Source: Bacteroidales bacterium (GTDB lineage: Bacteria > Bacteroidota > Bacteroidia > Bacteroidales > F082). From it: a stretch of 32,970 nucleotides of DNA. The notes below the pieces were generated by a model. The model worked only from the letters and a program-made list of their open reading frames with translations. It was not told the DNA's origin and ran no database searches. Location of the stretch: NCBI GenBank assembly GCA_027011095.1, contig JALVAQ010000129.1, forward strand, positions 1-32,970. Direction: 5' to 3'. Of the stretch, positions 3,525 through 27,152 are shown one piece after another. Position 1 is the first letter of the stretch. Each line of letters begins with the position of its first letter. The position numbers and the translations under genes are program-made.

Positions 3525-4676
3525 ATGTCTCGATTAAAAGTTATTATACCGGTATTTTTGTTGTTATCGGTTTTGTTTTGGGGTTGCCCCAACACGAATC
3601 CTGTTGAGCCTTATCAGCCAACGCCATACACCATTGATATTCCCAAAGGATTTCCAACCCGGCTTAATATTCCCAAAGATAACCCAATGACCGTGGAAGG
3701 AGTTGAGCTGGGCAGATATCTGTTTTACGACGGCAGACTTTCGGGTCGTACTCAGCCCGACTCGTTAATGAGTTGTTCCACCTGCCATGTGCAGTCCAGT
3801 TCGTTTGAAGCTGGCATAAACAATCCGCGTTTTCCCGGAGGAATTGTAAAAGGCTTAAACGGAGTAGCAACCCATCATGTGATGCTGCCCATGATTAATT
3901 TGGTATGGAACGCCAGCGGATATGGTTGGAACGGCTATATATGGCCTGAAAATCCGAATCCTAATTTGCGAAACATTGAAGACATGGTATATGCAGCCGT
4001 TACGGCCAAAAACGAAATTGATGGTGACACTACGCGAATAAAAACTTTGTTTCAGTCGATTAGTGGCTATCCCGAACTGTTTGGCCGTGCCTTTGGTAGT
4101 GATAAGGTTACCTTTAAAAATATTGAAAAAGCCATTGCCCAGTTTGTACGTACGTTGATTTCGGCCAACTCGAAGTTTGATAAATATTTAAGAGGAGAGG
4201 AGCAGTTAAATCAGTCGGAACTACATGGTTACGTTTTGTTTACTACCGAGCAGGGTGCCGACTGTTTTCATTGTCATGGTGGGGCGGGTAATCCGCTGTT
4301 TACCACGCATCTGTTTTATAACAATGGAAAAGATACTCTGTTTACGGATCCCATGGACAGATATGCCATTACCGGTAAAGAGCGTGACATAGGAGCCTAT
4401 AAAGCAACCACATTGCGCAACATTGAGTTTCAGGCACCGTACATGCACGACGGACGTTTTAAAACACTGGAAGAGGTGATTGATTTTTATTCGGAAGGCC
4501 TGCACAACAGCCCATATGTTAATCCGTTGATGCACCATGTGGCTGACGGAGGGGTTCACCTTACACCCACTGAAAAAACAGATTTGATAAATTTTATTAA
4601 AACGTTGAGAGACGATAGTTTTCTCACCAACCCTGCTTTTTCAAAACCCGACAGGTTTCCCGACGATTACAAATAG
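3525..4676 (+). CDS. Di-haem cytochrome c peroxidase/MauG family protein, MbnH-like
   Basis: Di-haem c-type cytochrome of 383 residues, anchored as a lipoprotein (C21 in LFWGC). The track's TTG start at 3516 lies inside the preceding gene; the ATG at 3525 is better. Two haem-binding motifs are visible, CSTCH (84-88) and CFHCH (247-251). A Met in APYMHDGRF (M307) sits where CcpA-type peroxidases place the distal ligand of the second haem. The family includes hydrogen peroxide-reducing peroxidases, MauG, and MbnH, which oxidises a tryptophan of its partner MbnP. Direct linkage to an MbnP gene favours the MbnH role over general peroxide defence, though sequence alone cannot separate these. The gene ends in a 10-base tail-to-tail overlap with the histidine kinase gene on the other strand. 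Confidence 0.9.
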   Translation: MSRLKVIIPVFLLLSVLFWGCPNTNPVEPYQPTPYTIDIPKGFPTRLNIPKDNPMTVEGVELGRYLFYDGRLSGRTQPDSLMSCSTCHVQSSSFEAGINNPRFPGGIVKGLNGVATHHVMLPMINLVWNASGYGWNGYIWPENPNPNLRNIEDMVYAAVTAKNEIDGDTTRIKTLFQSISGYPELFGRAFGSDKVTFKNIEKAIAQFVRTLISANSKFDKYLRGEEQLNQSELHGYVLFTTEQGADCFHCHGGAGNPLFTTHLFYNNGKDTLFTDPMDRYAITGKERDIGAYKATTLRNIEFQAPYMHDGRFKTLEEVIDFYSEGLHNSPYVNPLMHHVADGGVHLTPTEKTDLINFIKTLRDDSFLTNPAFSKPDRFPDDYK

Positions 4677-7600
4677 TTACGAAGGATAGAAATTAATTTT
4701 CCTTTGGCAATGGGTTTCGAAATATAATCGTCACACCCTGCCTCCAATGCTTTGGCTTTGTCATCGGAAAAAGCATAGGCAGTTTGTGCTATAATAGGTA
4801 TGGTTGGCTGTGCTTTTTTTATAATTCTGGTAGCTTCGTAGCCATCCATTATCGGCATTTTAATGTCCATAAAAATAATGTCGATTTCATCAGCCTTTTC
4901 GTCGGCAATCTCCACAGCCTCTTTGCCCGAAAATGCATGTAACACCTTAGCCCCAAGTTTGGTAAAAAAGGCTTCAAAAAACTGATAATTTCTCTCTTCA
5001 TCTTCGGCTACCAATATTACTTTGCCATCAAGCCTGAAGTCATCGGAAATTCTGACATTACTGTAGCTAAATGCAGTTTCCTCGGTTTTTTCCAAAGGAA
5101 TGGTAAAATAAAAAGTGGTGCCTTTTCCTTTTTCGGAAGAAAGCCAGATGTCGCCATTCATTTTTTCGATAAATGCCTTGGAAATGCTTAAACCCAACCC
5201 TGTTCCGGGATAAACCTTCTTGCCATCGGTATCCCAGGTTATTTTGTTAAAACGCTCAAAAACAAGGTGGTGATTTTCCCTGCTAATACCAATACCGGAG
5301 TCCTTTACATAAAATTCAATTTCTTTTTCCATTATCCGATAGCCCATTTCAACATAGCCATTGTCGGTAAATTTTATGGCGTTGTTTATCAGGTTAACAA
5401 GTATCTGTTTTACCTTTGTTTCATCAAGCATAACTGCCTGTTCGTTATAAAATGTATCTGGAGTAAGGCGCAATTCAATATTTTTTTTGTTGGCAGTAAG
5501 CAGGTGCTGGTTGTAAACTGCTTTCATTAACTGATTAACATCCGTTGGCTTTTTGTGAAGGCTGATTTGCCCCGCTTCAATTTTCGACATTTCAATTATA
5601 TCGTTAATAATCTCAAGAAGTGAATAGCCACTGGTATTAATAATATCGACAAACTGTTTCCGCTCATCGTTGCCAATTTCTTCATCCTGCAACAGCGCGC
5701 CAAAGCCCAGTATTGCATTCATTGGAGTTCTGATTTCGTGACTCATGTTGGCAAGAAATGCCGATTTTAATTTGTCACTCTCTTCGGCTTTGTTTTTGGC
5801 TTCTACCAGCTCTTTTTGAACCTTAATTTTATCGGATATGTCGTGAATAACCGAGTAAAATACTTCTTTCTTCTTGCTGTTTAAAACGCCGGTATATAGT
5901 TCCACATCTTTTACAATACCGTTTTTTAGTTTATGCTGAAACAGAAAATGATTTTGCTCCCCGGTTCTCACTTTATTAAGAAGTGTTTTTAGTTCGTCAG
6001 TGTTTTTAATATTAAACTCAAACACCGATTTTTTTATAATCTCGGTATTGGTGTATCCGTAAAAATCGCAGGCTGCCTGATTGGCTTCCAAAATATTACC
6101 ATTAACAGGATCGAATATCAGCATAATCGACTTGTTTTCGTAAAACAATGACTTAAAGCGGTTTTCACTTTCAATCAGTTTTTCTTCAGCCTCACGCTTT
6201 TTGGTTATATCCTCCTTTATTCCAACATAGTTAACAATATTACCCGATTTGTCTTTTATGGGTACAATTAAACCCGACTCGATGTAAGTTTCACCACTTT
6301 TTCGTTTATTGATAAACTCGCCTGTCCATGTTTCTCCTTGCGAAAGGTTTTTCCACATTTCGATGTAAGTATGGAACGGTGTTAATCCGGATTGTAAAAT
6401 TCTTGGGTTTTTCCCAATGAGTTCTTTTTCGCTATAGCCGGTAACTTTTTGAAAAAACGGATTCACATATTCAATGTTTCCTTTTAGGTTAGTAATGATA
6501 ATTGAAATAGGACTCTGCTCAACAATGGTTGAAAGTTTTCGAATCTCCTTTTCGCGTGCAACGCGCTTTGATATGTCAATCCAAACAACGTGTATCACCT
6601 CTTTTCCATTGATTATCAGCAGGGTAAGGGTTACGTGAAGATAAATATTTTTGCCGTTTTTTGTGGTGTGTATCCAGTCAAAACTGACCGGCCCTTTTTC
6701 AATAGCCTGTGTAACATAGTTGCTTACAGCTTCATGGGATGGAATTCCGCTTTCCTGAAATTCGGGTGATATGTCGCCGGGTGTTTTACTTATTATTTCA
6801 CTTTTGTCGTTATAGCCAAGCAGAACTGCCGCTGCCAGATTACAGTCGATAAATTTAAGTTCTTTCGACAGAAGTAACTGAGGAGTAAGTGATTCGTTAA
6901 AGATGCGCCTGAATTTATCTTCACTCTCTTTTAGTTCTTTTTCGGCTTTTCTTTTCCCGGTAACATCTTCGATGGATGCCAAAAATGCAATTACGTTACC
7001 TTCATCGTCCAATTGAGGAATGTATTTGGTTATGGTAATAATTTTTTGGCCGTCAGGGCTTATGCGTTCATTTTCAAATTCAATAAGTTCGCCTTTTTTA
7101 ACAAGGTCTAATTTATCTTTAATGGAGTTGTAATATTCAACAGGTAAAACATCTTTTGCATTTTTTCTGATAAAAAAGCTATAATCCTTACCGTAAAAGT
7201 CAGCATATTTTCTGTTTACATATAAAAATTCATTTTCTTTCGAAACATAGGCCAATAACGCCGGTACTTTGTCAATAATCAACCGGAGCAATGCCCGTTG
7301 TTGTTTAATGTGATATTGATACTCTTTTTCCTTGGAAATATCAACAATAATGAGCTGATGGCAGGCCTCTCCATCGAAGATAACTCTTTCGGCATATATT
7401 TTAACCGGAAGCCTGACACCTTTATCATTTATTAAAACTTCCTCAACGGGATATTGTATTTCTTCGCCATTTTCAAACCGTATCATCCTGTCGAGGTTTC
7501 TTTCCCGTAATTCGGGGGGAATAAATTCAAAAATGTTTTTTCCGATTACATCCCTGAACCTTTTGCTGTTGGTAAGCTTTTTGCCCGTTTGATTTATAAA

Positions 7601-8518
7601 CCTTATATACCCGTCTTTATGGATTATTAAAATGAAAGGCAGTTGATGAATTAACGTTTGGTATTTATTTTCGCTTTCATCCAACAAATCGCGGGTAATT
7701 CGTTCTTCGGTAACATCTTTTAAAATAATAGCGCGAAAGTTGTTATCGGCAACTACCGATTTTAACCTGACCCAGATAAGCTTTTCCTTGGTGTGAAAGC
7801 GAACGGTTACTTCATTTGCTTCACCTCTTCTTGTTTTTTTCTGAAACCGGCGAAGTTTTTTATAATCGGCTTTTGAAACCAGTTTTTCATAAAAAAACAG
7901 GTCTTTTGAAAACACTTCGGGATTAATATTGAAAAGTTGAAAAAAGTTAGGGCTTACATAGATAGGTTGCTCCGAACCTCTATTGTAAATTAGATATGCC
8001 TCAAAGCTTTGAGAGATAACCTCAGGAAAGACAGCTGATAGGGGATGGTCTTGATTCTTTTGCTTTTCAGGAACAATTTTAAATACACCTTCTATTTTTT
8101 CTCGTTGCCCGTTTTTTTCAAAGAGCCATGCCGTGTGCATAATTTCAACAATTTCCCCATTGGGAATATTTATTGTGTTTTTAAATATTTTGCCGTTATT
8201 TTCTTTTGGGAAATCAATATATGTTGAAAGGAAATCCTGATAATTGCTGTTTCTTGCAAGATTTATCAGGTTTTCAAGCGTACTGTTGTTACCTACCGGT
8301 AAACCGAATTGCTTGTATAAAAAGTCGATGCCCGTAATGGTTTTCTCTTTGGCATTGTACAACCACCGGTACACATCTCCAAGAAAATCTTCGGAAGAAA
8401 GTATTTTTTGCCAGGATGCTACCTCTTTAAGATATTCAATTTCTGTTTCAATGGGTTTATTGTCAGATGTGTTGCTTTTATTCAAACCTGTTTTTTTCAT
8501 GGTTCCCATGTTTTCCAT
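4667..8518 (-). CDS. Multi-PAS hybrid histidine kinase with C-terminal receiver
   Basis: Hybrid sensor kinase of 1283 residues. No signal peptide or membrane helix is visible, so it is probably a soluble cytoplasmic sensor. About six PAS domains can be picked out, near residues 170-275, 285-400, 408-525, 532-655, 665-780 and 788-905, plus a possible degenerate one before residue 150. Several end in the typical D(I/V)(S/T) linker, for example DITKKREAEEKL. The HisKA domain has the phospho-acceptor His927 in SHEIRTP. The ATPase domain has an N-box (NLINNAIKF), a G1 box (DSGIGIS) and a G2 box (GTGLGLSIS). A receiver domain follows with Asp1218 in FMDIKMPIMDG. There is no DNA-binding output, so it must signal onward through phosphotransfer or a separate regulator; none is nearby. 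Three in-frame ATGs lie at the N terminus, and I kept the first. The ligand is unknown. Confidence 0.93.
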   Translation of the reverse strand: MENMGTMKKTGLNKSNTSDNKPIETEIEYLKEVASWQKILSSEDFLGDVYRWLYNAKEKTITGIDFLYKQFGLPVGNNSTLENLINLARNSNYQDFLSTYIDFPKENNGKIFKNTINIPNGEIVEIMHTAWLFEKNGQREKIEGVFKIVPEKQKNQDHPLSAVFPEVISQSFEAYLIYNRGSEQPIYVSPNFFQLFNINPEVFSKDLFFYEKLVSKADYKKLRRFQKKTRRGEANEVTVRFHTKEKLIWVRLKSVVADNNFRAIILKDVTEERITRDLLDESENKYQTLIHQLPFILIIHKDGYIRFINQTGKKLTNSKRFRDVIGKNIFEFIPPELRERNLDRMIRFENGEEIQYPVEEVLINDKGVRLPVKIYAERVIFDGEACHQLIIVDISKEKEYQYHIKQQRALLRLIIDKVPALLAYVSKENEFLYVNRKYADFYGKDYSFFIRKNAKDVLPVEYYNSIKDKLDLVKKGELIEFENERISPDGQKIITITKYIPQLDDEGNVIAFLASIEDVTGKRKAEKELKESEDKFRRIFNESLTPQLLLSKELKFIDCNLAAAVLLGYNDKSEIISKTPGDISPEFQESGIPSHEAVSNYVTQAIEKGPVSFDWIHTTKNGKNIYLHVTLTLLIINGKEVIHVVWIDISKRVAREKEIRKLSTIVEQSPISIIITNLKGNIEYVNPFFQKVTGYSEKELIGKNPRILQSGLTPFHTYIEMWKNLSQGETWTGEFINKRKSGETYIESGLIVPIKDKSGNIVNYVGIKEDITKKREAEEKLIESENRFKSLFYENKSIMLIFDPVNGNILEANQAACDFYGYTNTEIIKKSVFEFNIKNTDELKTLLNKVRTGEQNHFLFQHKLKNGIVKDVELYTGVLNSKKKEVFYSVIHDISDKIKVQKELVEAKNKAEESDKLKSAFLANMSHEIRTPMNAILGFGALLQDEEIGNDERKQFVDIINTSGYSLLEIINDIIEMSKIEAGQISLHKKPTDVNQLMKAVYNQHLLTANKKNIELRLTPDTFYNEQAVMLDETKVKQILVNLINNAIKFTDNGYVEMGYRIMEKEIEFYVKDSGIGISRENHHLVFERFNKITWDTDGKKVYPGTGLGLSISKAFIEKMNGDIWLSSEKGKGTTFYFTIPLEKTEETAFSYSNVRISDDFRLDGKVILVAEDEERNYQFFEAFFTKLGAKVLHAFSGKEAVEIADEKADEIDIIFMDIKMPIMDGYEATRIIKKAQPTIPIIAQTAYAFSDDKAKALEAGCDDYISKPIAKGKLISILRNYL

Positions 8519-14561: not shown

Positions 14562-17500
14562 TTATTTAATGAAAACTTTGGTTGTATAAACTTCTCCGTT
14601 GCTGATAACCCTTACCACTACGTAAGCGTTGGAAGCATTTACCGGAACTCTTACAATATCTCCCGGTGGTAGTGTTTTATTTACCAACGTTCGTCCGGTT
14701 ATGTCATAAATGGTTAGAACTTTGTTCTCATTGGCAAGTGCTTTGCTGCTTAAAACATACACATTCTTCTCATACGCATAGGCGCGTATGGCCGAATGGG
14801 TATTGTTGTTATCAATTCCTGTAACCGAACGATTGAAGTGTAACCTGAACCGGTCGGGGTTTTGATAAGTTGTTGCCTCGAATGTATAAACCGGATTGTT
14901 GTTCAGGTTTTGAATTTTATTCAGTTTAAGGTCTTCAAGCACAACATCTGTTTCAGGCAGGCTGCTTAAGTCGGCAACAAGTGTTTGAGTTCCATTTACA
15001 CCGGCTTTGTAACCAACGGCAACGGTTCTTTCGTCACCGGGGTTGAGAGCAGGCAGGCTGTTTTGACTCAGCTCCTCTTCAGGAATAATAGCATATACCT
15101 GTGGTGCATCACCGCTAAAGGCAAACATCTTACGAGTGTCACGACTTTCAAATAGTTCATCGGCACCATTAATAAACAGGATGTTCAACTCATCATAGTT
15201 GTCATTTCCAAACATGGCTTTGAGTTTCATCATGTCCAAATTATTTGAACGGGTGCTTTTGTAATAAGCCTGTGATGAATGAACTCTGGCAGCCAAAGGA
15301 ATGGTAATGGTTGGGCTTGCAGCGTTGGCATGGATAAAGAATCCCTGTCCCATAGGAATGATACCACCTGATAATGCACCTGTTTTTGTTGTAGTATTAT
15401 AATCTTTGTACAAAGTATTACTCCATACCCAGAAAGTACTGTCCACATTGGCCATGTTCCAGGCACCTGAGTCAAGGGCAATGGGGCTGGCAAACGGGTT
15501 ACCAATTAAGTTGTAGCCCAGCGGGTCAGCCCCTGTATAACTTAAGGCGGGGGTACTGGCAGTAGTAAGCGCAACATCGGCACGGTTTAAGGTACCGGTG
15601 AAATTAAATGTCTGTGCAGCAGAACCGCCAACCCATAACTCATAACCGGCTCCTACATCTAAGGGGTCAGTCAGGGTAGTCATATAAGTTCTTGAATTGT
15701 CAGGCTCATTATAGTGCGTAATCCAAACATCAGGCGAACCTCCCAAATATAAATTATTCAGGGTTTGGCCTTGTACAGGAGACGAATAATCGTGCCATAC
15801 ACCGGCTGTGGTGTAACGCTGAATGGTGGCGTGGCCGGAAACGATTAACAGTCCGTCATTTAAAATAGAGGCGTCTCCGGAGGCATCCGATTCAATAACC
15901 AGACTGTCAATGGTAGTTGCACTATTAAGGGTTGGGTAATTTGTTAATCCTGTGGGGATGGTTACCACAGATGTTGACGATGGTAATCCGGGGTTCCAGT
16001 TTCCGGTTGTATCCCAATCATTGCCTGAGGCACCGGTCCAGGTGGCTGTGGCCACTACTTCAACAACTTTAATATCGTCAACATATAGATTAAATTGATC
16101 AGCATCACTATAACCGTGGAAGCCAATATAAATGGTTTCTGATGATGTTGGCGTAAAGGTTCCTGTACCCATAAACCAACTTGTGTTGGTAACATTGCTA
16201 TTGTCAAATATGGGTGTCCCTGACATGGAGGTTGAGGCGGGTGAGCTACCCCAGTCAACAGCCAGTTTTTCAGGAAAGCTGGGGCTGGCAGCTCTATAAG
16301 CAAATGAAACTTCATAGGTTACCCCGGCAGTTAAATTAAGCCCTCTTGTAAAGAACCAGTCATTCATAGCTGCATTTGAATTCCAACGAATCTTAGCAGC
16401 GTTTGGCGCACTTAAGCCATCTGTTGATGTTTCCCATGTATAAGCATCACCGTTGGTATTTTCTACGGTCATACAGAATGGAAAATCAGGAGCTGTTACA
16501 GCATCAAAGTTTTGGAAGTAGGGTACAGAGGTTGCATCACATTCTGTTGAAAAACTCCATTCAGTTCCTGCAACGGTATCACTTGTACCATTGTACACCG
16601 TGCTTACCGTCCAAAAATATTGAGCGCTGTAATCCCAGTTTGAACCACGTTTATAGAGGGTGTCGGTAAGACTGTAATTGGCAAGCACATCACTTCCACC
16701 GGAAGTTGTTCCAATATTTAGTAGATATTTGGTAGCATTATCTACAGGATTCCATGCTAAAGTATCTGATGAAACTAATATTTTTGAACTACCATCAGCA
16801 GGGTAAGGACCTGTTGCCAATCCGTTGGCGGTTGTGAACGGGGTAGCTGATTTAACCCACACACTATTTGAGCCACTACCGCAGGATGCACGAACATACC
16901 ATTCGTAAGCAGTAGAAGCTAACAGTGTATCAACGGTTAAAAAGGTGTCAGCGGTCACAGTATAATAGGCGGCACCGGTAGTATCAAATCCTGTTTCGCC
17001 AATTCTGACATTCCATGTGGTTGCCGAACCGGATTCTTTCCAGTGCATTTTAACCGAATTTAATTTGATACTATCTTCAGTTAGTGATAGAGGCTCAGGA
17101 CAGGCAGGAGGAACTCTTACCTTAAAGTTGTCAATAAAAATGTCGTTGTCTTTGTTGGTAATAGAAGATGATCCGTAAAAACCAATCTTCACTGTTGAGG
17201 AGTAAGCTGTTAAGTCGATGGTAACATGCTCTCCTGTGTTGGAAATAATTTCAGGATAAGTCCACACTTCTAATGTATCTTTAATACTCCATGTTGCACC
17301 ATTATCTGTTGAAATAACAACAGCAAGTGTATCATCAGGCCCTAAAGTATCGGCATTTGTAGTACCATAGTGCGTTAATGCTAAATCAAATTCCAACTGA
17401 TAAGCATCACTACTTAAGTCAATTGAAGGTGAAATTAGCCAATCTTTTTTAGTGGTACCATAAAGATCGAGCTTGGCACTTTTGCCGTTTGCAGAAACAT

Positions 17501-20114
17501 TGGCAAAATCATCCTGTATCCATGCAGATGATGTACCTGATAAGATTGAAGGATTACTAAGATACCCGGTTGTCTCTGTCCAGCAAATGGGTAAATAATC
17601 AGCAAAATCCTGTGTGTATTCGGGTGTATATACACCACATTCGGTGGTGAAGTCCCATTCAGTACCGCTAACAGTATCGCTGGTTCCGTTGTATACGGTA
17701 CTTACCGTCCAAAAATATTGAGTACTATAATCCCATGGGTTGCCGGCTACATAAATAGTGTCAGCAATGCTGTAATTAGACAGCACATCGTTTCCGCCTG
17801 TAGTTGTTCCAATATTTAGCAGGTATTTTGTTGCATTGTCAACAGGATTCCATTTTAAGGTATCAGACGAAACAAGCACGGGGTCTGTTCCATCGGCCGG
17901 ATAAGGACCTGTAGCCTTTCCGGTTGTGGTTGTAAAGCTGTGAGAGCCAATCCAGTCGCTGTAATCGCCCCCTCCACAGGATGCTCTTACATACCAGTCG
18001 TAAGTAGTGGAAGCAAGCAGGGTGTCAACAGTGATGGTATCGTTGGTAACAACTGAATAGCTTGTTCCGGTAGTATCAAAACCGGAAGTACCGATTCGAA
18101 TGTTCCACTCGGTGGCAGAACCATTTTCTGTCCAGCTCAATTGAGCACTGTTCAATTTTAAGCTGTCTTCAACCTGAGCTGTAGGAGTAGGACATGTAGG
18201 TGCTTCTCTAACATTAATTGTGTCTATAGCCATATCGGATGTATAACCGGAACCGGTTATTCCCCAAATTTTCAAATACACATTGCTGTTTCCGCCATAG
18301 CCATTCAAATAAATAAAGTCTGTATTCCATTGGTTTCCTTGGTCACCAGATACTGACCATATAGTATCCCATGTTACACCATTATCTGTTGAGGCTTCAA
18401 ATTGTAAAGTTCCCATAGTTGAACCATACATGTGGTAAGCAAAACTTACTTGCGGAATGGTTAATGAACTAAAGTCAAATGACAACAATAAACCTGCTGT
18501 TTTGTCCGGATTATTAGGAGAGGAAGATTCTGTATATATGTAGTAGGAACCTGAGTAGGCACCTGAAGGCCCTGTGCTCCCTGACGGGGTACCTCCTGTT
18601 CGCCGTGTCCAGTCAAAGTCATCGCTAGCCATTTGTTTCCACTGTCCAAAGTCAGTTTCAAAACTTTCATTATATGGGAAGGTTGATACAGTATTGGGGA
18701 CAATTTCAGTAGTAAATGTGCTTGGTCCTGTCCATGTGCTTGAGTCTCCTGCACCGCAAATATCTCTCACATACCAATCGTAGGAAGTGGAGCTGGATAA
18801 ACCTGTAAGCGTATAAGGATTGCTGGTGGTAGTCACAAAATGACCTGTACCCTGAACAAATCCTGCAGTATCCCATTCAATTTGCCAATTATTTGAGCCA
18901 CCGGTTGTCCATCCAAGGTTAGCCTGAGAGTTTGTAATATTGCTTTCTGTTTGGGCTGTAGGAGCCGGGCAAGCAGCACATGAAGTTAATCCCGAAGGAA
19001 CAGCAGGATCCCCAATATCTCCTGGAGTAGCTCCACCAGCACCTTCGTCACCTACCATATTACCACCTTCATCGTACACCTGATATTCGTTCTCTGTTGA
19101 ATAACTTCCTGCAGTATAATCAAATGACAAAACATCACCTATGTCAGTAGGGATACTATGTGATTCAGGTCCAGCCCCATTTGATAATGTTAAATCGTCA
19201 TAATATAAAGTACCATTTACATATACATCAAGTACGCCACCATTCCATCCATCACCATATGAATCAATTAGATCCACATGCCAAACACCACAAGTTCCGG
19301 CAGTAGAAAAAGTAGTTGGTCCTGTCCACGTACTTCCACAACCATTTTGTACATAAGCATCATATGTTGTTTTTGAGGTTAATCCTGTAGCTGTTGCGGT
19401 AGTGTCGTTCCCAGCTGTTGTGCTGCCTGAAGAAACAGCAGTTCCTGTACCCGGTGTGCCACCTGAGGCAACAATTTCCCAGTTATAGCCCGAAGAACCT
19501 GAAACTTGTGTCCAGGTAAGATCTGTCGTAGTAGTTGTCGCATTGGAAACCGTTAGTGTGGTGGGGGCAGGGCAACTTATACCTTCAATAACAAATTTAT
19601 CTACAAAAGTATTTTTCAACCCATAATCACTAGTTGCTGTAAGTTTAACCTTTACAACATCATTTCCGATGATATGAGAATAGTGTACCCAGGTAGTAGC
19701 ACCACTTCCATAGGTTTGTATGGTTTCGAGCAGTGACCATGCACTTCCGTCAATTGAAGTGTAAACATCAATGGTTGCCGGCGTTGAGCTGCCGTCATTA
19801 TTCCACCAATAAAAACTGAGTGTTGGATTTGTTTCAGACGACACATCAAACACAGGAGTAATTAAGTCGCCCGTTGTACCGCTGGAATAATCATAATTAT
19901 TAAACATGGCGGCATAACTTCCATCATAAATATTGGCAGAACCGGGTCCATGAGTATCTCCGTCATCTTGTACCCAGGTACCATCTCCAGAAGAAGGGTC
20001 TAATGTCCACCCTGTTGGTGGCCAGGTTTCAAAACTCTCGTCAATGACCTGACTGATTGCAATACTACTAAACACAATAATGCTTAGTGCTAACAATAGT
20101 AATTTTCTTTTCAT
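14562..20114 (-). CDS. Giant modular surface protein with T9SS type A sorting domain
   Basis: A 1850-residue secreted protein exported by Sec and then T9SS; probably an adhesin or structural surface protein, as no catalytic domain is visible. The signal peptide is MKRKLLLLALSIIVFSSIAISQ. Approximate layout: choice-of-anchor/MAM-like domain 22-178; FN3 179-272; a DSYGDGWNGG domain 275-375; FN3 380-467; MAM 468-633; FN3 pair 641-825; choice-of-anchor J-like 825-1003; FN3 pair 1005-1188; a third anchor-type domain 1188-1355; a WTGASGNDWDTTGNW segment and beta-rich region to about 1770; type A sorting domain 1773-1850 ending TTKVFIK. FN3 units commonly open with CPxP. A block of about 365 residues is duplicated. 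It is low in lysine and rich in Thr, Ser, Gly and Asp, as is common for secreted Bacteroidota proteins. The next gene is 18 bases downstream. Domain borders are estimated by eye. Confidence 0.92.
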   Translation of the reverse strand: MKRKLLLLALSIIVFSSIAISQVIDESFETWPPTGWTLDPSSGDGTWVQDDGDTHGPGSANIYDGSYAAMFNNYDYSSGTTGDLITPVFDVSSETNPTLSFYWWNNDGSSTPATIDVYTSIDGSAWSLLETIQTYGSGATTWVHYSHIIGNDVVKVKLTATSDYGLKNTFVDKFVIEGISCPAPTTLTVSNATTTTTDLTWTQVSGSSGYNWEIVASGGTPGTGTAVSSGSTTAGNDTTATATGLTSKTTYDAYVQNGCGSTWTGPTTFSTAGTCGVWHVDLIDSYGDGWNGGVLDVYVNGTLYYDDLTLSNGAGPESHSIPTDIGDVLSFDYTAGSYSTENEYQVYDEGGNMVGDEGAGGATPGDIGDPAVPSGLTSCAACPAPTAQTESNITNSQANLGWTTGGSNNWQIEWDTAGFVQGTGHFVTTTSNPYTLTGLSSSTSYDWYVRDICGAGDSSTWTGPSTFTTEIVPNTVSTFPYNESFETDFGQWKQMASDDFDWTRRTGGTPSGSTGPSGAYSGSYYIYTESSSPNNPDKTAGLLLSFDFSSLTIPQVSFAYHMYGSTMGTLQFEASTDNGVTWDTIWSVSGDQGNQWNTDFIYLNGYGGNSNVYLKIWGITGSGYTSDMAIDTINVREAPTCPTPTAQVEDSLKLNSAQLSWTENGSATEWNIRIGTSGFDTTGTSYSVVTNDTITVDTLLASTTYDWYVRASCGGGDYSDWIGSHSFTTTTGKATGPYPADGTDPVLVSSDTLKWNPVDNATKYLLNIGTTTGGNDVLSNYSIADTIYVAGNPWDYSTQYFWTVSTVYNGTSDTVSGTEWDFTTECGVYTPEYTQDFADYLPICWTETTGYLSNPSILSGTSSAWIQDDFANVSANGKSAKLDLYGTTKKDWLISPSIDLSSDAYQLEFDLALTHYGTTNADTLGPDDTLAVVISTDNGATWSIKDTLEVWTYPEIISNTGEHVTIDLTAYSSTVKIGFYGSSSITNKDNDIFIDNFKVRVPPACPEPLSLTEDSIKLNSVKMHWKESGSATTWNVRIGETGFDTTGAAYYTVTADTFLTVDTLLASTAYEWYVRASCGSGSNSVWVKSATPFTTANGLATGPYPADGSSKILVSSDTLAWNPVDNATKYLLNIGTTSGGSDVLANYSLTDTLYKRGSNWDYSAQYFWTVSTVYNGTSDTVAGTEWSFSTECDATSVPYFQNFDAVTAPDFPFCMTVENTNGDAYTWETSTDGLSAPNAAKIRWNSNAAMNDWFFTRGLNLTAGVTYEVSFAYRAASPSFPEKLAVDWGSSPASTSMSGTPIFDNSNVTNTSWFMGTGTFTPTSSETIYIGFHGYSDADQFNLYVDDIKVVEVVATATWTGASGNDWDTTGNWNPGLPSSTSVVTIPTGLTNYPTLNSATTIDSLVIESDASGDASILNDGLLIVSGHATIQRYTTAGVWHDYSSPVQGQTLNNLYLGGSPDVWITHYNEPDNSRTYMTTLTDPLDVGAGYELWVGGSAAQTFNFTGTLNRADVALTTASTPALSYTGADPLGYNLIGNPFASPIALDSGAWNMANVDSTFWVWSNTLYKDYNTTTKTGALSGGIIPMGQGFFIHANAASPTITIPLAARVHSSQAYYKSTRSNNLDMMKLKAMFGNDNYDELNILFINGADELFESRDTRKMFAFSGDAPQVYAIIPEEELSQNSLPALNPGDERTVAVGYKAGVNGTQTLVADLSSLPETDVVLEDLKLNKIQNLNNNPVYTFEATTYQNPDRFRLHFNRSVTGIDNNNTHSAIRAYAYEKNVYVLSSKALANENKVLTIYDITGRTLVNKTLPPGDIVRVPVNASNAYVVVRVISNGEVYTTKVFIK
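16541..17102 (-). repeat. Intragenic repeat copy B of FN3 pair
   Basis: Codes for two FN3-like units (about residues 1005-1190) and is matched by copy A at 17638-18194. The two share long near-identical protein runs such as LLASTxYxWYVRASCG and WNPVDNATKYLLNIGTT. At DNA level the exact run CTTACCGTCCAAAAATATTG occurs at 16603 and 17701, an offset of 1098 bases. Confidence 0.85.
17638..18194 (-). repeat. Intragenic repeat copy A of FN3 pair
   Basis: Partner of the copy at 16541-17102. It covers about residues 641-825 of the large secreted protein. The copies differ by a few small indels and many synonymous changes, so the duplication is not very recent, but shared exact runs of 20 bases remain. 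Confidence 0.85.
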
Positions 20115-25321: not shown

Positions 25322-26491
25322 TTAATAATTTTCCTTAATTATTTGAGCGACAAGCTTGTTAAGCTTTTCAAAAACTTCCTGCTCCGAGCCTGTGCCGTCA
25401 ATGGCGTAGTATTTGCTTTGTTTCCGGTAATAATCGATAACGGGTTTGGTTTTTTGTTTGTATTGCTCCAGACGGTTTATAATTAATTCAACCGATTTAT
25501 CGTAAGGACGTGCTCTTTTGGTTGCTGCACGGGCATTTAGCCGCTTTAAAGCTGTAATGGTATCTATTTCCATCTCTATTACTGCCGAAACTTTCATGTG
25601 TTCTTTCATTAAAAGCCCGTCAAGTATATACGACTGAATCATGGTACGGGGGAAACCTTTAAAGATAAATCCTTTTGAATCGGGATGGTTTCCAATACGT
25701 TTTTCAATCAGTTTTATGGGGATTTCATCCTCAACAATTTCTCCTTTTTCCATATAAGGCTCAACCTTTTTACCCAACTCTGTTCCGTTGGCGATTTCCA
25801 TACGAAGCATTTTTCCGGTAGAAATATAAACCAGATTATGCTCTTTGGCAATCAGTTGTCCCTGTGTACCTTTACCTGATCCGGGTTTTCCAAGCAACAC
25901 AATATTTGTGTGAATTGTTTTTCGGTGCCCCTCAATAACCGATGTTATTTGCTCAAAAATTTCATCAATTTCGCCAACACCGTTTATTTCGTAATATTTA
26001 CCCCGTTCCTTATAGTAATCGGCAACAGGAGCAGTTTTGTTATGATACTCCTTTATTCTTACCTTAATAACATCCAGGGTATCATCGCTTCGCCCCGAAT
26101 CTTTTGCTCTCGCTAACAACCGCTCGGTTAACACTTCATCAGGAACTTTTAAGGCAATCATCATGTCCAATTGAGTATCCAGCTTAAGCAACAGGCCGTC
26201 AAGAATATACGATTGAACGACTGTTCGTGGGAAGCCATCAAACAGGATACCTTGTTTATCAGATGAATCAATAATGTTTTTTTCAATCATTTGTACTACC
26301 AGCTCGTCCGAAACAAGTCCACCCATTTCAATAACGCCTTTGGCTTCCATTCCTAAAGCTGAACCGGATGCAATTTCCGAACGCAACATGTCGCCCGTAG
26401 AAATATAAGTAAGGTTGTATTTTTCGAGTAATTTTTTCGATTGAGTTCCCTTACCCGCTCCCGGAGGGCCAAAAAGTGCAATGTTTAGCAT
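25322..26491 (-). CDS. adk: Tandem two-module adenylate kinase
   Basis: Two adenylate kinase modules in one 389-residue chain; typical bacterial Adk has one module of about 190-215. Module 1 (1-187) has the full catalytic set: P-loop GPPGAGKGTQ (8-17), STGDMLR (D34), DGFPRT (D85) and GRSDD (133-137). It lacks the long zinc-type LID insert. Module 2 (about 194-389) keeps the P-loop GKPGSGKGTQ and overall fold, but shows STGKMLR (K227 for Asp), KGFPRT (K278 for Asp) and ARPYDK instead of GRSDD. Those changes hit residues that handle Mg-nucleotide and phosphate transfer, so module 2 is probably impaired or regulatory. The gene follows hpt by 11 bases in one operon, tying AMP/ADP balance to purine salvage. 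The reading frame is intact, so it is not a broken pair. Confidence 0.93.
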   Translation of the reverse strand: MLNIALFGPPGAGKGTQSKKLLEKYNLTYISTGDMLRSEIASGSALGMEAKGVIEMGGLVSDELVVQMIEKNIIDSSDKQGILFDGFPRTVVQSYILDGLLLKLDTQLDMMIALKVPDEVLTERLLARAKDSGRSDDTLDVIKVRIKEYHNKTAPVADYYKERGKYYEINGVGEIDEIFEQITSVIEGHRKTIHTNIVLLGKPGSGKGTQGQLIAKEHNLVYISTGKMLRMEIANGTELGKKVEPYMEKGEIVEDEIPIKLIEKRIGNHPDSKGFIFKGFPRTMIQSYILDGLLMKEHMKVSAVIEMEIDTITALKRLNARAATKRARPYDKSVELIINRLEQYKQKTKPVIDYYRKQSKYYAIDGTGSEQEVFEKLNKLVAQIIKENY

Positions 26492-26502
26492 AATCTTAAA
26501 TT

Positions 26503-27042
26503 TTATTGGTCAATTACTTTGTAAATATCTTTTAAATTTCGTCCCTGTTCATAATAATCAAGGCCGTAGCCAACAATAAAGTCGTTGGGAATTTCAATAC
26601 CAATATAATCAATCGGGTAATCTTCCTTAAAAGCTTTTGGTTTAAACAATAAAGTGGCAATTTTAACATCGTCGGCACCCATCGACAACAACTGCCTGAT
26701 TAAGCCGGCAAGGGTAAGGCCGCTGTCAACAATGTCCTCCACAATTACAATGGTTCTTCCTTTAATATCCTGATTAAACCCAATCAACTCCTTTACTTTG
26801 TTGGTGGATTGCGTACCAGAATAGGAGGCAAGCTTAACAAAAGAGATTTCGCAGGGGAAATCGAGCTTTTTCATTAAATCACCTGCAAACATAAACGACC
26901 CGTTCAGGATAACCAGAAATATGGGTGTTTTGTCTTTTATTTCATCGCTAATTGTCACAGCCATTTTTCCAATGGCGGCATCAATTTCTTCGTAGCGAAT
27001 AAAGGTTTCAAATTCCCTGTCTAAAATTTTTATAATACTCAT
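26503..27042 (-). CDS. hpt: Hypoxanthine phosphoribosyltransferase
   Basis: Purine salvage enzyme joining hypoxanthine or guanine to PRPP to make IMP or GMP. The PRPP-binding motif is IVIVEDIVDSGLTL, with FLVILNGSFMFAGDLM and FIVGYGLDYYEQGRNL also typical. The track ORF starts at 27087, but I place the start at the ATG at 27042 (MSIIKILDREFETFI, 179 residues). The extra N-terminus MPYFLYLPFAIKTSV is not typical, and a perfect -7 promoter element (27067-27074) lies inside that extension. First gene of the hpt-adk operon. Confidence 0.96.
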   Translation of the reverse strand: MSIIKILDREFETFIRYEEIDAAIGKMAVTISDEIKDKTPIFLVILNGSFMFAGDLMKKLDFPCEISFVKLASYSGTQSTNKVKELIGFNQDIKGRTIVIVEDIVDSGLTLAGLIRQLLSMGADDVKIATLLFKPKAFKEDYPIDYIGIEIPNDFIVGYGLDYYEQGRNLKDIYKVIDQ

Positions 27043-27066
27043 TACAGATGTTTTAATAGCAAACGG

Positions 27067-27074
27067 CAAATATA
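27067..27074 (-). promoter_or_regulatory. -7 promoter element for hpt-adk
   Basis: Reads TATATTTG on the minus strand, exact to TAnnTTTG, 25 bases before the ATG at 27042. It decides against the longer ORF start at 27087. No convincing -33 TTG at normal spacing. Confidence 0.6.
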
Positions 27075-27152
27075 AAAAATATGGCAACTACTTTTAACCG
27101 GGTTACAATTTTGTTGTCAAACCTTAAATTTTCCAAATATTATCTCCTTCGG

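Follow-up and report, generated by a model that had tools for sequence, protein, structure and literature searches.

Adenylate kinase balances ATP, ADP, and AMP, and the textbook enzyme is single-domain, unregulated, and essential, as well as a standard model of protein dynamics. The stretch of Bacteroidales DNA analyzed here (32,970 nucleotides, hereafter the window) carries an ORF that an initial annotation, made from its letters alone, had read as two such enzymes in one chain, the second of them degenerate. What could a cell gain from an adenylate kinase tied to a defective copy of itself, and is that copy being kept or lost?

Two adenylate kinase modules share one reading frame

The 389-aa ORF runs from 26491 to 25322 on the minus strand without an internal stop and joins module 1 (M1, aa 1–195; 25907..26491, minus strand) to module 2 (M2, aa 196–389; 25322..25906, minus strand). 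The protein produced two PF00406 matches, each a complete adenylate kinase module, confirming the in-frame fusion. Both modules also pass the cut-off of 187 bits of the NF001381 profile, M1 with 229.0 bits and M2 with 189.8. An ORF of the same length recurs in many independent assemblies, which rules out an annotation or frame artefact; such tandems are hidden at present because annotation models name both halves 'adenylate kinase'. A check for another standard adk, which the initial annotation had recommended, found none in a search of the whole genome (~95% complete). Because the tandem is the only adk found, M1 must supply the adenylate kinase of the cell, unless the missing few per cent of the genome hide another.

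To compare the modules we mapped residue numbers to E. coli Adk, whose sequence served only for numbering and for one row of the tree below. M1 contains K14, D34, R37, D85, R89, Q93, R124, R128, R134, D136, D137, and R145, the equivalents of E. coli K13, D33, R36, D84, R88, Q92, R119, R123, R156, D158, D159, and R167. It thus has the P-loop Lys, the Walker B Asp, the AMP-site and lid arginines, and the RxDD motif of an adenylate kinase, in keeping with the claim that its catalytic residues are all present. The corresponding residues of M2 are K207, K227, R230, K278, R282, Q286, R317, R321, R328, Y330, D331, and R340, and so M2 lacks the complete catalytic set: D84 is replaced by K278, D33 by K227, and RxDD by RPYD. 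The two lysines stand exactly where they had been reported, K278 (codon 25658..25660) in the last position of the Walker B strand (GFLLD in the D84 form) and K227 (25811..25813) at the position of D33. The P-loop had been described as retained, and its Walker A lysine, K207, is indeed in place (25871..25873), as are the phosphate-binding arginines R230, R282, R317, R321, R328, and R340. The P-loop of M2 (GKPGSGKGT) contains an extra lysine, K202 (25886..25888). The reported loss of RxDD was partly correct, as the lid motif has changed from RSDD in M1 to R328-P-Y330-D331 in M2 (Y330-D331 codons, 25499..25504), but D331 remains; because an additional residue separates RxYD from R340 in M2, Y330 can be aligned in more than one way. 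All of these codons lie on the minus strand.

The D84-type carboxylate is conserved in P-loop NTPases, where it hydrogen-bonds a Mg-bound water (PMC9599734), and Mg2+ accelerates the E. coli Adk reaction more than 44,000-fold (PMC10399197). Since Adk catalysis depends on Mg2+, replacing the Mg-site Asp by lysine would be expected to leave M2 incapable of useful phosphoryl transfer.

Every M2 examined lacks the complete catalytic set

We located 62 tandems by HMM, without using a motif, in 41 relatives, in 109 genomes of the order, and in a further family, whose six tandems were found with an M2 alignment and added to the set. Tandems occurred in 22 of the 41 relatives (29 tandems). Not one of the 62 M2s has a complete catalytic set. 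The Walker B position is K in 59, N in one (L152), and D in two (L156 and L157), and both M2s that keep D have lost RxDD and the arginine of FPR, which is S in one and I in the other. The initial annotation had asked whether the fusion and its lysines recur elsewhere, naming homologs with normal motifs in both halves as the finding that would count against it; the fusion and K278 are widespread, and the search, free of motif bias, returned no such homolog (0/62). Seen in 62 tandems whose discovery did not depend on the motif, the M2 pattern is neither chance nor private degeneration. K227 fared less well: the position varies (K/S/A/Q/H) among the type A tandems to which that of the window belongs.

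A set of 99 unique tandems gave the same picture. This set was picked by a pattern demanding K, so the invariance of K within it holds by construction; we replaced an earlier claim of invariance with the result from the 62 HMM-located tandems, which showed the three exceptions. Within the 99, the only fixed differences between M1 and M2, start Met aside, are D84-to-K and the lid Tyr. For the 99, among them the 29 tandems from relatives, a table of the M1 catalytic residues shows none missing; in the 33 later tandems, we read the M1 P-loop and DGFPR motifs, which were normal.

In type A M2s, the P-loop Lys, the equivalents of R36, R88, R119, R123, and R167, and the RxYD Arg are nearly all kept. 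Of 85 type A sequences, 48 have all three of K202, K227, and K278, and the net charge of type A M2 is about +6.7 vs −2.1 for M1.

Some M2s have also lost nucleotide-binding residues

A second, more degenerate tandem, type B, has the M2 P-loop GxPGxGR (L034, L041–L046, L135–L138, and L140–L142). In its M2, Arg has replaced the P-loop Lys, and R36 and the lid Arg are gone too, with K278 and YD kept. Several genomes with type B also have a type A tandem or a normal adk; in one genome (G236), type B is the only adk found. The P-loop Lys is also missing from L154, L162, and L181, all outside the type B clade; this lysine was thus lost to Arg at least twice independently while K278 and YD persisted. 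R36, R88, or the lid Arg has been lost in several M2 lineages.

Two other arrangements of adk came to light. In four genomes, a separate, third single-domain adk adjoins the tandem (L157 in G835, L164 in G784, L165 in G801, and L166 in G853). A member of another family of the same order carries an in-frame hpt-adk fusion of 377 aa (L048:1988-3119, G027).

Tandems are spread through the Bacteroidota

Of 198 genomes from the order, 34 carry the signature FKG[FY]PRT..Q[AS]YILDG, and they are scattered over many families; a second class of the phylum has it in 6 of 149. Scanning the genomes of 84,980 species produced 548 related stretches, some of them matches to module 1. The best 80 of the 548 were all labeled Bacteroidota except two labeled Chlorobiota, and the one of these two that we put in a tree was placed among Bacteroidota sequences. 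Where a genome has type A alone, it usually has no Adk besides the tandem.

In the window, an hpt-like phosphoribosyltransferase gene (26503..27087, minus strand; start codon uncertain) lies 11 bp upstream of the tandem (25322-26491) as a separate ORF, and the two probably share an operon; hpt is upstream of the tandem in 61 of the 85 type A relatives examined. We considered a conserved neighborhood as a clue to function and set it aside, as type A usually follows hpt and type B has no constant neighbor. In one genome, inspected by eye, type B directly follows genes resembling a Pit-type phosphate transporter and DUF47 (L041:868-2714, G018). Elsewhere, the window encodes a protein of 1850 aa that contains MAM and fibronectin type III domains (14562-20114, minus strand) and a hybrid histidine kinase of 1283 aa that combines several PAS domains with a receiver domain (4667-8518, minus strand).

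One duplication produced all tandems and selection maintains M2

In a maximum-likelihood tree, all M2s formed one clade (100/100) and all M1s another (98/92), the latter also containing three single-domain Adks of the family; a single duplication therefore accounts for all tandems. When the exceptions from the unbiased search were added, L157 and then L156, which both keep D84, branched first within M2, indicating that D-to-K arose once, on the branch leading to all others. The M1 and M2 trees are broadly parallel. Between pairs of close relatives, dN/dS was 0.01–0.11 for M2 and 0.01–0.08 for M1. Purifying selection on M2 is thus as strong as that on M1, and M2 is being maintained rather than decaying.

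The three single-domain Adks that group with M1 (L017, L037, and L039) read FPRN in place of FPRT and keep a segment YI[I/L]TG. They may possibly reflect secondary loss of M2; an AU test (p = 0.38) found this reading and that of singles predating the duplication both compatible with the data.

M2 may serve as a built-in partner of M1

These observations establish the fusion and its single origin, and they show that every M2 has lost the catalytic set and that M2 is under purifying selection. As an explanation, we consider it fairly likely that the cell's adenylate kinase, M1, is tethered to a conserved pseudo-adenylate-kinase, M2, forming a pseudodimer that stabilizes or tunes M1. One adk would have been duplicated in tandem, in frame, early in the Bacteroidota. 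M2 would then have lost catalysis stepwise, with catalytic lid and AMP-site residues going first and the Walker B Asp, which helps hold Mg2+, changing to Lys afterwards, once on the main branch, and purifying selection would have preserved M2 from then on. Such an M2 would perform no useful phosphoryl transfer; it may pack on M1 as an internal pseudodimer and thereby stabilize M1 or tune its opening and closing.

A candidate surface for such packing is a helix segment after FPRT, YIL[D/E]G, that both modules share (YILDG at aa 95–99 of M1, 26195..26209, and at aa 288–292 of M2, 25616..25630, minus strand). Single-domain Adks from other families of the order lack this segment; the three that cluster with M1 have it in the form YI[I/L]TG. 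Judging from this pattern, it could be an ancestral dimer surface that now lies between the modules. AlphaFold predicted confident Adk folds for both modules of the full protein (mean pLDDT 88.7), but the relative placement of the modules was weak (pTM 0.60 for the window and 0.64 for type B), and we set these models aside for the interface as too uncertain. Against this explanation, the close relatives L017, L037, and L039 manage with a single M1-like Adk, so that either M2 is dispensable there or their genes predate the duplication.

The main alternative is that M2 is a sensor, binding ATP, AMP, or an Ap4A-like polyphosphate nucleotide without Mg2+ and switching M1 allosterically according to energy charge or stress. 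We regard this as possible but doubtful. Type A M2s keep nearly all nucleotide-site residues and have added lysines at the phosphate and Mg sites, and E. coli Adk binds Ap4A with a turnover of only about 5e-6 per s (PMC10399197). Against a sensor, Arg has replaced the P-loop Lys on at least two occasions, and several lineages have lost R36, R88, or the lid Arg while keeping K278 and YD. Because the P-loop Lys and AMP-binding arginines are gone from some M2s, nucleotide binding is not the general reason for M2 retention; with these residues repeatedly lost and the fold, K278, and YD kept, the common role would be structural or allosteric, acting through M1–M2 contact. A structural, pseudodimer role therefore appears to suit the whole family better than nucleotide binding.

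Within the lineage of the window, nucleotide sensing by M2 is plausible. Here M2 retains the P-loop Lys together with every phosphate-binding arginine, and as many as three lysines have been added near the phosphate site. Since the pocket is intact for phosphate and unusually positive, Mg-free nucleotide binding is reasonable as an added role: M2 probably still binds Mg-free adenine nucleotide and may relay that state to M1. A broader version, in which whole Bacteroidota lineages have a built-in, Mg-free nucleotide-sensing pseudo-Adk domain that governs how active the catalytic domain is, according to adenylate or alarmone levels, seems unlikely to us. To our knowledge, such nucleotide-sensing regulation of Adk has not been described in bacteria.

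M2 could also still be an enzyme, using another phosphate donor or acceptor or working independently of Mg2+ with lysines replacing the metal. Its full fold is kept under strong purifying selection, and type A M2s retain all phosphate-binding side chains; the absence of a complete catalytic set from all 62 M2s, and of the P-loop Lys and R36 from the type B M2s, makes this improbable. It is more improbable still that M2 is a plain duplication in decay and heading for loss, for although some relatives have a single M1-like gene, M2 matches M1 in its low dN/dS, its substitutions are common to many families, and the M1 and M2 trees are broadly parallel. The initial annotation had favored a structural, allosteric, or sensing module over a simple duplication. 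It was right that M2 is no simple duplication, in that shared losses and strong purifying selection mark a long-conserved, non-standard module rather than a fresh copy; the retained P-loop to which it pointed is not general, as at least two other lineages of M2 have Arg in place of the Lys.

If the pseudodimer reading is right, a sole Adk with a conserved inactivated twin would illustrate how control or stability can be built in through domain duplication. The series found among M2s (D kept with R88 lost, then K gained, then the P-loop lost) offers a test case for an enzyme domain becoming a regulator.

Comparison with known adenylate kinases and P-loop pairs

M1 shares the fold and every catalytic motif of the bacterial short-form adenylate kinase (PF00406; PDB 8pvw, 2cdn), and M2 has the same fold and scores as an adenylate kinase. 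Unlike that enzyme, the tandem has two copies per chain, and in M2 neither the Walker B Asp nor RxDD is present. Our searches of the open-access literature for tandem or pseudo adenylate kinases in bacteria yielded nothing on a bacterial Adk joined to an inactivated one. Another Adk fusion of the Bacteroidota, the HGPRT-adenylate kinase of Zobellia galactanivorans, joins one biochemically active Adk domain to HGPRT (PMC7326950). It recalls the hpt-like gene directly upstream of our tandem, in which Adk is joined to a second Adk rather than to HGPRT; the hpt-adk fusion of L048 (G027) resembles the Zobellia protein.

Degenerate partners are familiar among P-loop NTPases, where consensus and degenerate sites pair, as in asymmetric ABC ATPases. 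The tandem appears analogous in setting a putatively inactive module with an altered Walker B beside an active twin. It is not a member of that group, having the NMP kinase fold and no known composite site. M2 also matched the phage profile phrog_255 (E 1e-5), which we discounted as probably just the shared P-loop fold.

Tandem Adks are known in eukaryotes (AK5, AK8, and AK9), which likewise have several Adk domains per chain, and the M2 profile matches AK9 chains. The best PDB match spanning both modules was 9fqr_G8, a 475-residue chain of the bovine sperm axoneme that we take, from its length, to be the tandem Adk AK8 (rmsd 16.7 Å). Across eukaryotic multi-domain Adks, rmsd over the two-domain alignment was 14.5–16.7 Å with a model of pTM 0.60, and a common arrangement is not evident. 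The bacterial tandem is separate in origin, the product of its own single duplication.
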